DNA of 64,000 bases from Deltaproteobacteria bacterium (GTDB lineage Bacteria; Desulfobacterota; GWC2-55-46; JADFVP01). The DNA lies in assembly GCA_029262515.1 (NCBI GenBank), contig JAJCZH010000003.1, positions 62,001 to 126,000 on the forward strand, read 5' to 3'. Both the position numbers and the translations under genes were made by a program. The first letter of the stretch is position 1. The number at the start of each line of letters is the position of its first letter. Below are positions 50,216-56,898 of the stretch, in pieces. Under the pieces are notes generated by a model. That model saw nothing but the letters and a program-made list of their open reading frames with translations, was not told where the DNA came from and ran no database searches.

Positions 50216-50887
50216 TTATTTCTTTATATTCGCTGATATTTCATCCCACTGCGGCCTTACGGGCCACGGTTTGCTCGGCAACCTCAGTTTAACACCGAGC
50301 TTTTCCCCGAACTTTATCGCATCCTCCCTTGTAGTAAAGAAACCAACCCTGACCCGGTACCACCTGACGCTGCCCTTTAAAAAATCGGTAACGTACGTAT
50401 TGTACCCGACCTTACGAAGCTCTTCAGCAAGGGCCAGGGCCGGGGCTTTTTTAGAGAAAGAGGCAACGTTTATGGCCCATGGCTTCTTACCACCCGGAAC
50501 CGCAGCCTTTATCTCCGTTGGAGTAGGCAACTTCGTCTCGGCTACTTTAGCCGGTTTTTTAACTGCCGGAGCCTCGGTACCACTCTTTTGACTCACACTT
50601 TTTACAGGAGCTTTATCAACACGCTTAACAGGTACCGGTTTCTTTATCGGCTTTGACGCTGGTGTTGAAATCTTCTTTACCGGTTTTTTCACAACCGGAC
50701 TGCCTGCCTTCTGGTACATTCCCTTCATGTCTACCTTTGCCCTTTTGGATGAAATGACCATGGGGCCGGAATCAATTTCAGTCGGCTTCTCTGCAGAGAG
50801 ATAGATCAGTACTGCCGCCACTATCACAAGAGTAAGGAGAAGAACAATGACCGATTTTACTGAATTAGCGGACTTGGCAGAAGCCAT
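50216..50887 (-). CDS. SPOR-domain inner-membrane protein
   Basis: A 223-aa protein with one transmembrane helix (residues 12-32), a Lys/Pro-rich flexible linker (about 60-130) and a C-terminal SPOR domain (about 138-210, WAINVASFSKKAPALALAEEL and WYRVRVGFFTTREDA). SPOR domains bind denuded septal glycan strands, so the protein probably localises to the division site. AAAGGTAGG precedes the ATG. It lies 92 nt after the 31-codon membrane peptide and may belong to the end of the pilus operon. Confidence 0.88.
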   Translation of the reverse strand: MASAKSANSVKSVIVLLLTLVIVAAVLIYLSAEKPTEIDSGPMVISSKRAKVDMKGMYQKAGSPVVKKPVKKISTPASKPIKKPVPVKRVDKAPVKSVSQKSGTEAPAVKKPAKVAETKLPTPTEIKAAVPGGKKPWAINVASFSKKAPALALAEELRKVGYNTYVTDFLKGSVRWYRVRVGFFTTREDAIKFGEKLGVKLRLPSKPWPVRPQWDEISANIKK

Positions 50888-50979
50888 AAAAAACCTACCT
50901 TTATTTAGATATTACAAAGACTTAAAGAGTTAACTCACTACACGGCATCAAGTATTAAGCAGATGTTCAACTCAGCACC

Positions 50980-51075
50980 TTATGAAAAGACTGCCACTAT
51001 AATGCCGAGAACAGCTGCCACAAACCCGTAAAGTATAAAGCTCTTGCTCTCTCTCAGATAATCTTTATAGTTCAA
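50980..51075 (-). CDS. 31-residue single-pass membrane peptide, overlapping secretin stop
   Basis: A 31-aa open frame from TTG 51075 to TAA 50980 on the minus strand. It begins NYKDYLRESKSF and continues with a hydrophobic stretch (about residues 13-30, ending AVFS) long enough for one membrane helix. A GGTGG stands about five bases before the TTG, and its TTG overlaps the secretin TGA (TTGA), which is the arrangement expected for translational coupling. No family is known to me. A role in secretin or pilus assembly is inferred only from position. Confidence 0.55.
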   Translation of the reverse strand: MNYKDYLRESKSFILYGFVAAVLGIIVAVFS

Positions 51076-52394
51076 TTTACCACCTTCTTCTGTTTAATTA
51101 TACGGGGTGTAATAAAGACCAGCAGTTCTTCATTCTGCTGCGTACTTGCGCTGCTCTTAAAGAGGTACCCAAGCAGTGGAATTCTAGAGAGTCCCGGAAC
51201 CTTCTTATGATCGTCGGAGTTGATGGTCTTGTAAAGGCCGCCTATTACTACGGTCTCTCCGTCTTTGACCAGTATATTGGTGCTTGCGCTCTTTTCAGAA
51301 ACTCCGGGTATGCCGTCGACCGTATGTGTATAATCTGGATCGCTCTTATTGGTCTTTATATCGAGCATCACAAAGTCGTCTGAAGATATCTGCGGGGTTA
51401 CCATGAGGTCTATTCCTGTCTTGATCTCCTCCAGGCCTGATGTGGAGTCCGTTGTTGTGGTGCTGCCGGTGGACGCCTGAGAGAGTTTTACCCTGAAGGT
51501 CAGACCGCTGTGTATCGTCGCCGTCTTGTTGTGGATCGTTGAAATCTTGGGGCTTGATATGATCTTCAATTCGCCTCTCGACTCGGCAGCGGATATCTCG
51601 ATATCAAGAGCCAGGGAATTAGCCAGGGAGCCTAACACTATACCGAGGCCCGCATTGGCATTCGGTGACGGCATATTTACCGCATACTTACGGCCACCGG
51701 GTGAGTCAGGCAAAAGAGCGCTACCGGTAATTATATCCCCTGAGCTTGAATATGTACCGCCCCACTGAACGCCTATCTCATTTGTAAAAGAGCTCGACGC
51801 CTCTACGATACGGGCCTCGATAACCACCTGTGCGGCCTGTATGTCCATAAGTTTGAGGAGCGCCTTGGCCTTCGCGATATTTACGCCAAAGTCCTTCAAT
51901 ATAACGGAGCTCGTCCTGTCATCAAACTCGACGCTGCCGCTCTTGGAAAGACTGCTCTTTAACCTGTCGGCCATGGAGCCGGGAGTGGCGTAGTTAAGGC
52001 GTACCACCTCGGTAACGATGTCACCTGTATGATCGACCTTCTTGCCGACCCAGAAAACGTTATTCTTGATCGTATAAGAGAGGGAGTTTGCCTCGATAAT
52101 TATCTCCAGAGCGTTCTTGAAGCTGATGTCTGAAAAACTGAGCGTAATCTTCCCGGTAACCCCCTCACCAAAGATAATGTTAAAGCCGCTTTGCTGTGCG
52201 AGCGCTCTTAGCACGTCACCGACTTCGGCATCCCTTATCTCCATGGAGAAGAGGCGCTTGTCGTTCTCTATTCTTGTCTTGATATCATACGGCTCCGCTT
52301 CAGCCATCTGAACCGAAACAAGAATCAGGAGAGGTAACAGAAGAGCCGCAAGGGCCTTTTTTATCTTATTGCCCTGTTTCATGAGCCTTTTCAT
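51072..52394 (-). CDS. pilQ: Type IV pilus secretin (PilQ/MshL-like)
   Basis: About 440 aa from ATG 52394 (another ATG at 52382); the longer frame to 52490 lies inside the preceding gene. It has a signal peptide (LLLPLLILVSVQMAEA), an N0/STN domain (IRDAEVGDVLRALAQQSG, KITLSFSDISFKNALEII), one N1 domain (IVTEVVRLNYATPGSMADRL) and the secretin pore domain (about 230-435, VVIEARIVE, VQWGG, EKSASTNILVKDGETVVIGGLY, VPGLSRIPLLGYLF). It lacks AMIN domains and has a single N1, as in short MshL-type secretins. It forms the outer-membrane channel for the pilus. Confidence 0.9.
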   Translation of the reverse strand: MKRLMKQGNKIKKALAALLLPLLILVSVQMAEAEPYDIKTRIENDKRLFSMEIRDAEVGDVLRALAQQSGFNIIFGEGVTGKITLSFSDISFKNALEIIIEANSLSYTIKNNVFWVGKKVDHTGDIVTEVVRLNYATPGSMADRLKSSLSKSGSVEFDDRTSSVILKDFGVNIAKAKALLKLMDIQAAQVVIEARIVEASSSFTNEIGVQWGGTYSSSGDIITGSALLPDSPGGRKYAVNMPSPNANAGLGIVLGSLANSLALDIEISAAESRGELKIISSPKISTIHNKTATIHSGLTFRVKLSQASTGSTTTTDSTSGLEEIKTGIDLMVTPQISSDDFVMLDIKTNKSDPDYTHTVDGIPGVSEKSASTNILVKDGETVVIGGLYKTINSDDHKKVPGLSRIPLLGYLFKSSASTQQNEELLVFITPRIIKQKKVVN

Positions 52395-52824
52395 ATACCG
52401 GCGAAACCGGATGTTCTGAGGTTGCAGGAAGTTTCGATAAGCTGGCAATCTCAAGAATAATCCGCCCCGAGATACCCTGAAGTATAACATGCGTCTTGCC
52501 TATATCAACAACTTTTTGCCCCCCTACAATGCTCTCTTTGTAGACTATGTCCCCGTTTATAATTGCCGACGGGCTCAACTCGTTAAAAAAGATCGCAGTC
52601 AACTTCACCTTGGCGGTACCTGCGCCATTAATAAGCGGGACAAAAGGGTCACGTCCCCAGTGAACTGCCGCTACCGGAGGCGCAGGCAGGTCGGCCATAA
52701 AGGTCAGCGATTCCGTTACCCCGGCGTCCGGCTCTTTGGAATAGACGGCGGATGAGGCAAATAAGAGCAATATGGCAACTAGAGCTAAAACAGATTCCAC
52801 TATGAGTATTTTTCTGTCCGACAT
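52366..52824 (-). CDS. pilP: Pilus assembly protein PilP/MshK-like
   Basis: A 152-aa protein started at ATG 52824 (GAGGTG upstream; a TTG at 52854 would add ten residues). One N-terminal transmembrane helix (about 7-25) is followed by a small beta domain with WGRDPFVPLIN and LTAIFFNELSPSAIINGDIV, typical of PilP/GspC/MshK. PilP links PilN/PilO to the secretin. It overlaps the secretin start. Confidence 0.8.
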   Translation of the reverse strand: MSDRKILIVESVLALVAILLLFASSAVYSKEPDAGVTESLTFMADLPAPPVAAVHWGRDPFVPLINGAGTAKVKLTAIFFNELSPSAIINGDIVYKESIVGGQKVVDIGKTHVILQGISGRIILEIASLSKLPATSEHPVSPVYEKAHETGQ

Positions 52825-52860
52825 ATCTCCACACCTCTTTTTTTCTTTTGCCAATACCGG

Positions 52861-53502
52861 TTATTTGATTGGTCCGAGTATATAAGCGCTGAGATAGACC
52901 TGTGAGACCAGTCCGGGTTTTCCAAACTCACCGCCGGCAGCACCGGCGGTTGGATCGCCATCAGGGGACTCAAGTTTAAAGTTCTCTATGACCATAACCC
53001 GTTCCAGGTTTTCAAGCCTCTCCACATAATTCCCGAATGAGAAGAACCCGGCTTCCAGATTGATCTGAAAAGGCAACCTTATCAGTTCTCCCTTCTCCTC
53101 AACCGCCATCGGTTTGATCGATCTTATCTTTATCTTGTCCCCGCGCCTCTCGCCTGAGAGTTCGGCCAGAAGCTGGGATATCTGTTTCGTTGACGGAAGG
53201 CGCTCTTTAAGGCTATTGAGCCGAGCCTTTTCCCGCTCAAGCTTATTGGTCGAATCTTTTACGGATTTTTTCAATCCTGCAATAGACTTGCTCTTCGCCT
53301 CAGCCGTTACGATTTCCGCCTTCTTTGCAACTATCTGCGCCTTAAGGGAGGCGAACTCCACCTGTTCTCCTTTGTAGATAGAGTTATAAAAGAAAAGAAC
53401 GCCGACCAGCATTATCGCCGCTCCGAGCAACTCTACCCGGTAAGCTCCCAGGACCTTAAAATCCGGGATCTTGAGCTTTTTTAAAAGTTCGTTACCATCC
53501 AT
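52861..53502 (-). CDS. pilO: Pilus assembly protein PilO
   Basis: A 213-aa protein with one transmembrane helix (about 22-45), a periplasmic coiled coil (about 48-105) and a ferredoxin-like PilO domain (IKIRSIKPMAVEEKG, INLEAGFFSFGNYVERLENLERVMVI). It forms a heterodimer with PilN in the inner-membrane alignment complex. Its start overlaps pilN by 11 nt. Confidence 0.88.
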   Translation of the reverse strand: MDGNELLKKLKIPDFKVLGAYRVELLGAAIMLVGVLFFYNSIYKGEQVEFASLKAQIVAKKAEIVTAEAKSKSIAGLKKSVKDSTNKLEREKARLNSLKERLPSTKQISQLLAELSGERRGDKIKIRSIKPMAVEEKGELIRLPFQINLEAGFFSFGNYVERLENLERVMVIENFKLESPDGDPTAGAAGGEFGKPGLVSQVYLSAYILGPIK

Positions 53503-54112
53503 AGATACCCTCGACTCCCTTTTTCAGCCTCACCTGTACCTCAAAATCGTAAACAGTACCGGACTCAAGCTCCTTCTTCTGAGTATAAGCGAGCTGCACA
53601 TTATTAAAATAGCCGGAGTTTTCAAGAGTGAAGATCAGGTCAGAGACAGCGCTGTTAGTAAGACCGCTGCCGAGCAACCGTACCTGCTTGACTCCACCAC
53701 CGCTTTCTTTTGTTGCAGCACCTATATCCGACGTTGTCATACTCTTTAACCAGACGCCGCCTGGCAGATCGTTACTCATACGCTTTAAGACAGTGGACCA
53801 GATTACGCGGTCGCGCGTCAGCCCGCTTGACAGGTCGAGCCGTCTCTTCATATCCTGTTCTTTCGCCGTTACACCGGTAAGTTGCGCCTTAAGGCTTAAG
53901 TACTCTCTACCCTGTCGCTCCAGAACCATACGTCTCTGTTCAAGCTCAACCAGCTTGTCTCTCTTGGCAACCACCGCAGAATGGTTAATATAGTAGAGTG
54001 CCCCGAGCAGGACCACATAGAGCACAGCACAGGCATAGAAGACGACTCTTACCTGTCGTCTTCTCCAACCCTTCTGTATTTCGAGCGGTATAAGGTTTAT
54101 GCTTTTAATCAT
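53492..54112 (-). CDS. pilN: Pilus assembly protein PilN
   Basis: A 206-aa protein with the PilN N-terminus IKSINLIPLEIQ (the cytosolic motif that binds PilM), one transmembrane helix (about 22-43), a coiled coil and a periplasmic ferredoxin-like domain (GVWLKSMTT, DLIFTLENSGYFNNVQLAYTQ). It overlaps pilM by 4 nt. Confidence 0.9.
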   Translation of the reverse strand: MIKSINLIPLEIQKGWRRRQVRVVFYACAVLYVVLLGALYYINHSAVVAKRDKLVELEQRRMVLERQGREYLSLKAQLTGVTAKEQDMKRRLDLSSGLTRDRVIWSTVLKRMSNDLPGGVWLKSMTTSDIGAATKESGGGVKQVRLLGSGLTNSAVSDLIFTLENSGYFNNVQLAYTQKKELESGTVYDFEVQVRLKKGVEGIYGW

Positions 54113-55143
54113 CTCTGCCTGCTTAGCGCCAGCCCTGTTGCTATGTTTAATGATGGTGCGATAGCCCTTACCGCCTCCGAGTCGAGTGAAGAGCCTATCT
54201 TAATATTCTTAAACGGGTCATGCCTAAAACACGAGATTCCGATTGTTTCGGCTATAAAGTCATCTATTCCAATAATCAAAGAGCTGCCGCCGGTAATATA
54301 AATGGTCGATACAGGGCCTCCTTTGAACTGCGCCTGATAGTAGTCTATCGATCTATAAATCTCAACACAGAGCCTCTCTACCAAAGATCGCATGGCAACC
54401 CCAACCGTCTCTGCGTCTTCGGTTGGTACTTCGAGACCGTAACGCTTCTTATACTCTTCAGCCTCGACACTGTCTTTACGAATACCCGCCGCAACGGTGC
54501 GCGTTATATCTTCACCGCCAAAGGTTATCTCGCGCACAAAAAGGATCTTTCCTTGCGATGCGATTACCAATGTGCTCGTTTTATCCGCAATTGCCAGAAG
54601 CGCGTAATTGACACCCTTCTCCCAGGTATTATTATGGTTAAAGACCGTGAGCAGCGCAGACGACGTCACGCTCAGCAACCTCAGTTCCAATCCTGCATCC
54701 TTAAACAGCGAGATCATGGAGTGAGCTTCTGTTTTTCTCGAAGCGAATGCCGCTACAGAGAGCTTGTTATCTATACTCGAAGCCGACGACACCATATAAT
54801 CGATAACAAGTTCTTCAGCAGGTATACCGGTCTCCTTCCTCATCTCCCAGATCACTGCCTCTCTCAGATCTTTGTCAGGCATCACAGGCAGGCTCAATTG
54901 CCTGGAAATAAGAGCGTGTCCGGCTAAGATAGTCGCAGCCCTCTTTCCTTTAATTTTATGCGCCTTCAACCCGTCTCTTATAAGAGTTGCCGTCTCGGCC
55001 ATCTCTGCCCGCTCTTGTGGAACTTGTACTGTAAAGGCCGCGCTGAGCACGGGCGTACCCGCACCGGTCTTCAACTTCACGACCTTTAGCGAGTGAGACC
55101 CGATATGCACACCTACCAGACTCTTATCAGCAAGTAAACCCAT
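54109..55143 (-). CDS. pilM: Pilus assembly ATPase-like protein PilM
   Basis: A 344-aa actin/FtsA-fold protein: VGVHIGSHSLKVVKLK (phosphate 1 motif), VREITFGGEDIT, ITGGSSLI (phosphate 2 region). PilM binds the N-terminus of PilN on the cytosolic side. It is directly followed by pilN (4-nt overlap) and preceded by the TPR gene with no gap. Confidence 0.92.
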   Translation of the reverse strand: MGLLADKSLVGVHIGSHSLKVVKLKTGAGTPVLSAAFTVQVPQERAEMAETATLIRDGLKAHKIKGKRAATILAGHALISRQLSLPVMPDKDLREAVIWEMRKETGIPAEELVIDYMVSSASSIDNKLSVAAFASRKTEAHSMISLFKDAGLELRLLSVTSSALLTVFNHNNTWEKGVNYALLAIADKTSTLVIASQGKILFVREITFGGEDITRTVAAGIRKDSVEAEEYKKRYGLEVPTEDAETVGVAMRSLVERLCVEIYRSIDYYQAQFKGGPVSTIYITGGSSLIIGIDDFIAETIGISCFRHDPFKNIKIGSSLDSEAVRAIAPSLNIATGLALSRQR

Positions 55144-55938: not shown

Positions 55939-56898
55939 TCAGGGCAGTACGAGCCCGAAGCCCGTTTTTGCTATTATTACAGGTCCCCAGTAGAAACCCG
56001 CACCGAATGCACTGGCAAAGCTGGCCAGCGCTATGTACGGCGTTACACGCTTCAGTACGCCTACATGCCCCTTTGCCGGTTGTGAGAAGTAACCGTCGCC
56101 CGTAAGCTCTTCTACGGCTTCCGCAACCTCCTCCACGCCTATCTCCCTCTTCGTCTTTATGAATGCTGCGGTCAATGAACGGTCGCAGAGTATATTTATC
56201 ATCCTCGGGATACCGCCAGTTGCTTCATAAACCGCATCCACGGCGCTCTCGCCAAACTCTACGGAACCGGATCCGCCCGCTACAAAAAGCCTGCTCTGTA
56301 TATAGGCGCCAGTCTCTTTTCTGTCGAGCGGAGCGAGGTCATACCTTACAATGATCCTCTGGTTGAGCTGCCTCAGTTCGCGGGTACCGAGTTTATCCTT
56401 CAACTCGGGCTGGCCTACCAGGATTATCTGTACGAGTTTATCCTTCTCGGTCTCGAGATTCGATATAAGCCTCAGCATCTCAAGCGCTTTGGCGCTCAGG
56501 TTCTGCGCCTCGTCTATTATCACAACCGCATTGCCTTTGTGCTCCGTAACGTCCAGCAAAAAAGTATTGAGAACATCGAGGTGTGACTTCACGCTCTGCT
56601 CATCGCTACTGAGGCCGAGATCGCTTGTTACGGTCCTTAGAAGCTCATCGGGGCCGAGTAGCGGATTGAGTATCAGGGCTGTCTCGACATTATCCGCAAG
56701 GTTTTCCAGAAGGGCCCTGCATATCGTGGTCTTTCCGGTACCGACCTCCCCGGTCAAAACGATAAAACCCTTGCGTTTGTTTATCCCGTACCGGAGCAGC
56801 TCAATAGCCTCGCGGTGTTTGGTGCCGAGGTAGAGAAATTTCGGGTCCGGCGTAACATGGAAGGGCATCTCTTTTAAATAGAAGAACTTCTGGTACAT
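55939..56898 (-). CDS. ExeA/MshM-type AAA ATPase
   Basis: A 319-aa AAA+ ATPase with Walker A GEVGTGKTT (about residues 51-59), Walker B VVIIDEAQNL, arginine-rich sensor regions and a C-terminal transmembrane helix (about 285-305). MYQKFFYLKEMPFHVTPDPKFLYL is the typical ExeA/TIGR03015-like opening, and it is cut short here to keep the motif clear: MYQKFFYLKEMPFHVTPD. It belongs to the secretin-linked ATPases that act on peptidoglycan passage. It follows the MerR gene with 4 nt between them. Confidence 0.88.
   Translation of the reverse strand: MYQKFFYLKEMPFHVTPDPKFLYLGTKHREAIELLRYGINKRKGFIVLTGEVGTGKTTICRALLENLADNVETALILNPLLGPDELLRTVTSDLGLSSDEQSVKSHLDVLNTFLLDVTEHKGNAVVIIDEAQNLSAKALEMLRLISNLETEKDKLVQIILVGQPELKDKLGTRELRQLNQRIIVRYDLAPLDRKETGAYIQSRLFVAGGSGSVEFGESAVDAVYEATGGIPRMINILCDRSLTAAFIKTKREIGVEEVAEAVEELTGDGYFSQPAKGHVGVLKRVTPYIALASFASAFGAGFYWGPVIIAKTGFGLVLP

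Follow-up and report, generated by a model that had tools for sequence, protein, structure and literature searches.

A 31-residue membrane protein starting at a secretin stop codon is probably a detached anchor of a SPOR-domain protein

The window, a stretch of 64,000 nucleotides, carries on its minus strand a set of pilus genes ending in a secretin gene, followed by a very short open reading frame and a gene for a SPOR-domain protein. The features are listed in the order of transcription.

52366 to 55143, minus strand: pilMNO and, in the PilP position, an ORF of 162 aa, all oriented like the secretin gene that follows directly; PilM, PilN and PilO recognized with Pfam/NCBIfam models.
51072 to 52490, minus strand: PilQ-type short secretin with STN, Secretin_N and Secretin domains, above the cut-off of TIGR02515.
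51080 to 51087, minus strand (boundaries approximate): Shine-Dalgarno-like GAAGGTGG within the final secretin codons, read from the sequence; motif not conserved in the related genomes G001 and G002.
51072 to 51075, minus strand: TTGA, read from the sequence, in which the peptide start overlaps the secretin stop codon TGA (51074 to 51072); the same layout opens SPOR genes in the outgroup.
50980 to 51075, minus strand: gene for a 31-aa small membrane protein with TTG start and TAA stop, a probable detached anchor on the basis of conservation in G001 and G002 and homology to the SPOR anchor of genome G003.
50888 to 50979, minus strand: untranslated gap of 92 nt between the peptide gene and the SPOR gene, poorly conserved.
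50216 to 50887, minus strand: SPOR-domain protein of 223 aa (PF05036, E 3e-14) with its own Shine-Dalgarno sequence, AAAGGTAGG.

An AMIN domain was not detected in the window secretin by Pfam/NCBIfam domain scan, and the ORF in the PilP position (52366-52854, minus strand, between pilO and the secretin gene) has no Pfam or NCBIfam match. The secretin ORF as listed is probably too long. A signal-peptide-like sequence, MKRLMKQGNKIKKALAALLLPLLILVSVQMAEA, begins about 32 codons into it; the likely start near 52394 still falls inside the 3' end of the ORF before it.

The peptide is encoded by the minus-strand frame 51075 to 50980 (TTG AAC TAT ... TCA TAA). The sequence leading into the start is AGAAGGTGGTAAA-TTG, and the product in the window ORF list and by translation is LNYKDYLRESKSFILYGFVAAVLGIIVAVFS. 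The plus strand is closed over 50980-51075, with no open frame there. As the initial annotation had described, the TTG start shares TTGA with the secretin TGA, and the 31 residues comprise a short charged N-terminus and a single hydrophobic stretch. Judged from the charges, the N-terminus is predicted to be cytoplasmic. The sequence features by which bacterial small membrane protein genes are recognized are present, namely an open frame of up to about 50 codons, one membrane helix and purifying selection. No significant family match was obtained for the peptide in Pfam, NCBIfam, PHROGs or the PDB (best E 0.02), the weak helix matches being limited to glycophorin A and a urea transporter. Membership in a known small-protein family was rejected, as the glycophorin A matches are weak and merely echo the spacing of small residues.

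The SPOR protein of the window has its own N-terminal membrane anchor, followed by the motif VISSKRAKVD and a linker leading to the SPOR domain, which scores 53.5 bits against a PF05036 gathering score of 21. Downstream lies a gene called miaB-like on the basis of its sequence. The peptide and the SPOR domain do not form one chain, since a stop follows the 31 codons and the SPOR gene is in another frame 92 nt on. The distances between the two starts are 188, 197 and 158 nt in the three genomes that carry the peptide, all of them out of frame. The gap varies in length among relatives and aligns poorly. Neither a promoter nor a terminator was found in the window gap, and an internal promoter was rejected because the promoter-like matches in relatives lie on the opposite strand at chance level. 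As an RNA element the gap is equally plain, with no Rfam match and ordinary folding energies (z -0.13, 1.10 and 0.02).

The class was sampled with 63 genomes, three of which (the window, G001 and G002) belong to the window's genus. The peptide frame occurs in 3/63 genomes, comprising 3/3 of this genus, contrary to the suggestion that such a peptide might be widely missed. It is exactly 31 codons long in the window, in G001 (L003/L046) and in G002 (L004/L045). The G001 peptide, MSYKDYLRESKSFIIYGLIAGIVGIIMAIFS, and the G002 peptide, MNYKDYLKESKSFIIYGLIAGVIGIILAIFS, both begin with ATG and are 71-74% identical to the window peptide at the protein level. The three stop codons differ (TAA/TGA/TAA). 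Other details of the start are less constant. Start and secretin stop overlap in the window and in G002, but the G001 start lies 5 nt past the stop (TAA TAGAA ATG). The GGTGG ribosome-binding site pointed out in the initial annotation is present in the window but not conserved, its place being taken by AAGGA in G002 and by only a weak match in G001.

A conserved frame with synonymous bias, which had been proposed as the check on the peptide, was found in both relatives. Synonymous change is in excess, with dN of 0.15-0.22 and dS of 0.7 to saturated. For the three pairs, of which the first is window/G001, the differences per codon position are 7/2/15, 8/4/12 and 5/4/10, and Nei-Gojobori pN is 0.13, 0.19 and 0.14 versus pS of 0.75, 0.54 and 0.46. 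When the same substitutions were placed at random in 20,000 trials, the expected amino acid identity was 15, 15 and 17 of 30, compared with 21, 22 and 25 observed (p 0.0008, 0.0002 and 0 of 20,000), and a stop was gained in 40-53% of the substituted frames. In the window/G001 comparison the peptide and the secretin have the same dN of 0.15, below the 0.37 of the SPOR gene, so that constraint on the peptide roughly equals that on the secretin. Drawn from the three genomes with a separate frame and about 90 sites, these comparisons show a frame that is restricted to the genus and under purifying selection, and most likely a genuine small gene.

Short frames of this size, about 31 codons, abound in the window, and relatives have a fused form of the SPOR gene, so the peptide could in principle be a chance frame in a short spacer or the product of an assembly error that broke a fused gene. 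We consider either very improbable. A chance frame was rejected by the random-substitution test, with p at or below 0.0008 for every pair. A broken gene was rejected because three separate MAGs agree on the same length with differing stop codons, and because the peptide and the SPOR protein start in different frames, are separated by a non-coding gap and each have an anchor of their own.

Loci from elsewhere in the class, outside the window's family, explain the position of the peptide start. In 23/24 outgroup loci with the same short secretin (21/21 in the main set and 2/3 further loci), a SPOR protein begins at a start codon that overlaps the secretin stop; one of the 21, L012, shows this only as a short frame that is open near the contig end. 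The overlap is mostly TTGA, with ATGA, GTGA or a longer overlap elsewhere, and GGAGG(T) precedes the coupled start in nearly all loci. In the coupled protein, of 200-280 aa, a short basic N-terminus leads into a single membrane helix; a VISKRVKI-like motif and a long linker then connect to the C-terminal SPOR domain. PF05036 was detected in 22/23 SPOR proteins scanned, those of the window and G003 included, and the single miss was taken to be the truncated L012. Coupling to the SPOR gene in nearly all of these loci marks the start site as an ancestral property of that gene. The window's genus differs, as the site there serves only the peptide while the SPOR gene has a separate start. The overlap on which the initial annotation had based translational coupling is therefore an old feature of the locus, but its ancestral product is the SPOR protein.

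In five loci (L007, L009, L015, L017 and L019) a lipobox-like LPSC or IPAC closes the first helix of the coupled SPOR protein. The kind of anchor on the SPOR protein, helix or lipoprotein, thus seems to vary from genus to genus.

The family's one other genus, represented by G003, has a SPOR protein (L035:1480-2130) beside and upstream of a miaB-like gene. The search used did not find a short secretin of the window type in G003. The protein reads ...LNLKKFLHTNKGFFILSLIAAILGTIASVFFGGCSKVEEQSDVIVSKRVKID, and its start, TTG-AAT-CTC, lies in the context AAAGGTGTCCTATTGA, which on our reading resembles the end of a secretin gene. Its N-terminus aligns with the peptide start to start from the TTG, with no gaps (E 0.006 in the peptide search). 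When the G003 N-terminus was scored on the 2049 candidate starts in the window that served as background, the peptide scored 64 and the next best start 20. Shuffles that preserved the composition of the N-terminus and the helix separately reached the observed score in 0 of 5000 cases. Since G003 was first found by the peptide search, the scoring and the shuffles confirm this match but are not independent of it. Weak peptide matches in four other loci of the order (L036, L037, L038 and L041) were rejected, as they lie in or beside unrelated genes.

A second comparison used the N-termini of five SPOR proteins of family f6, selected by N-terminal motif and not by peptide search. Among the 2049 starts the anchor of the window SPOR gene ranked first (26.2) and the peptide second (23.2), followed by a third start at 15.0. 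Beyond shuffles the match was p = 0.0016 for the peptide and only p = 0.09 for the anchor of the SPOR gene itself. The peptide fell to fourth of 2049 starts when all eleven outgroup N-termini were used. Hydrophobic helices are alike by composition, but the shuffles, together with the first 12 residues, speak against composition as the full explanation. The helix itself is distinctive. Small residues occupy positions 17, 20, 21, 24 and 28 in all three peptides and in the G003 anchor, spaced 3-4 apart on a single helix face, which suggests helix packing. The f6 SPOR anchors are without this pattern.

Taken together, these comparisons make it probable that the peptide is the detached ancestral anchor of the SPOR protein and a genuine gene made by secretin-coupled re-initiation. 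On the best reading it retains the ancestral start and N-terminus. The present SPOR anchor of the genus would then be either a duplicate or a replacement, and the four genomes do not separate the two. The proposal that this second anchor is a clear descendant of the peptide by tandem duplication was rejected, its similarity not going beyond composition (p = 0.08).

Restriction to one genus and a SPOR protein that has another anchor would also be expected of a decaying relic, an anchor split off recently and now being lost, with conservation reflecting short time only. We regard this as improbable. Between the window and G001 synonymous differences are near saturation whereas pN is low, and none of the three lineages has acquired a stop or frameshift. 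Near-saturation together with intact frames indicates that there was time enough for decay to show.

Somewhat more credible, though still unlikely, is a leader or relay role, in which the product is inert and translation of the 31 codons carries ribosomes toward the SPOR start or shields the mRNA. The peptide start is the ancestral coupling site, and no terminator separates it from the SPOR gene, the next one on that strand. However, the amino acid sequence is constrained beyond mere openness, which such a role explains less well. The SPOR gene has its own Shine-Dalgarno sequence, and the intervening gap, 92 nt in the window and of other lengths in relatives, shows neither conservation nor an unusual fold.

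If the peptide is a detached anchor, ribosomes ending the secretin would re-initiate at the overlapping TTG and produce a single-helix inner-membrane protein of 31 aa, with its charged N-terminus predicted to lie in the cytoplasm and its C-terminus at the periplasmic face. In G001 the absent overlap and the weak Shine-Dalgarno argue against such coupling. The ancestor would have been the N-terminal anchor of a peptidoglycan-binding SPOR protein, translated from the same start in relatives. In the window's genus the anchor would have turned into a separate gene, leaving a SPOR protein with another anchor and its own ribosome-binding site. The detached helix may pack in trans through its small-residue face (17, 20/21, 24 and 28), against itself or against membrane helices of PilN/PilO or the SPOR protein, and this packing might help keep the inner-membrane and cell-wall attachments of the secretin together. 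The SPOR gene of the genus retains an intact anchor, which means that the peptide is no plain substitute for a lost helix, and its partner is a guess. Stabilisation of the SPOR protein, the secretin or the PilNO helices by the peptide is proposed only tentatively. We are equally hesitant about the fuller version, in which the anchor, duplicated or split off, was kept as a 31-aa trans subunit for assembly or stability of a secretin-SPOR-PilMNOP envelope complex, attached by its small-residue face, and through the inherited coupled start is made in step with the secretin. The peptide had been suggested to assist assembly of the secretin or of PilMNOP. Because the SPOR protein is the ancestral user of the coupled start and its anchor corresponds to the peptide, a role in a SPOR/secretin complex seems better motivated than that of a free-standing PilMNOP factor.

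SPOR proteins of the FtsN/DamX type have an N-terminal single membrane helix, a linker and a C-terminal SPOR domain, and in gammaproteobacteria damX follows the pilMNOPQ/hofMNOPQ-aroKB genes. The window SPOR protein has a similar layout, but the NCBIfam ftsN model scores it far below cut-off (24 versus 108 bits). To our knowledge a detached anchor is not known for FtsN or DamX.

The closest published parallel to a tiny helix gene matching the fused N-terminal helix of relatives is subunit IIa (CbaD/CoxIIa) of ba3-type cytochrome oxidase, a single helix of 34-41 aa whose gene lies next to that of its partner (PMC3128077). Subunit IIa is structurally equivalent to the N-terminal helix of subunit II in relatives, for which gene fission or fusion has been proposed; it is often unannotated, and its product was found in the purified complex (PMC3128077). 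No sequence relation to the peptide is claimed. The two cases differ in that the ba3 partner lacks the detached helix whereas the SPOR protein of the window's genus keeps an anchor, and in that subunit IIa has been seen in its complex whereas the peptide is a predicted product.

Wall-binding modules linked to secretins include TsaP (LysM), the AMIN domain of PilQ, the SPOR domain of Legionella LspD, and GspA/GspB (PMC9239104, PMC5285504). The present locus resembles these in tying a wall-binding module to a secretin, here one in which no AMIN domain was detected and by way of a coupled SPOR protein. Unlike them, this class carries the module as a SPOR protein of its own, and one genus encodes the anchor separately too. 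In contrast to the TsaP, AMIN and LspD modules, the 31-aa peptide lacks any wall-binding domain. In the open literature, with most subscription journals outside the scope of the search, neither this small gene nor any SPOR protein coupled to a secretin was found described.

The origin of most tiny membrane proteins is generally unknown. Here an origin may be traced, the anchor being fused in sister families, intermediate-like in a sister genus and free-standing in the window's genus. The broader module, a SPOR protein coupled to an AMIN-less secretin across the class, is a plausible cell-wall anchor for the secretin machinery.

Four further loci, L027, L028, L030 and L031 (G048, G024, G041 and G044), have a larger secretin in a frame of about 930-1040 aa. 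Where the sequence extends far enough, the next gene is chorismate-synthase-like and not SPOR. Within the window, the ATPase gene heading the pilus genes (55939-56898, minus strand) falls just under the cut-off of the XrtA/PEP-CTERM-associated ATPase model (301 versus 324.5 bits), and on our reading of the sequence the first 15 kb hold a candidate exosortase/exopolysaccharide cluster.
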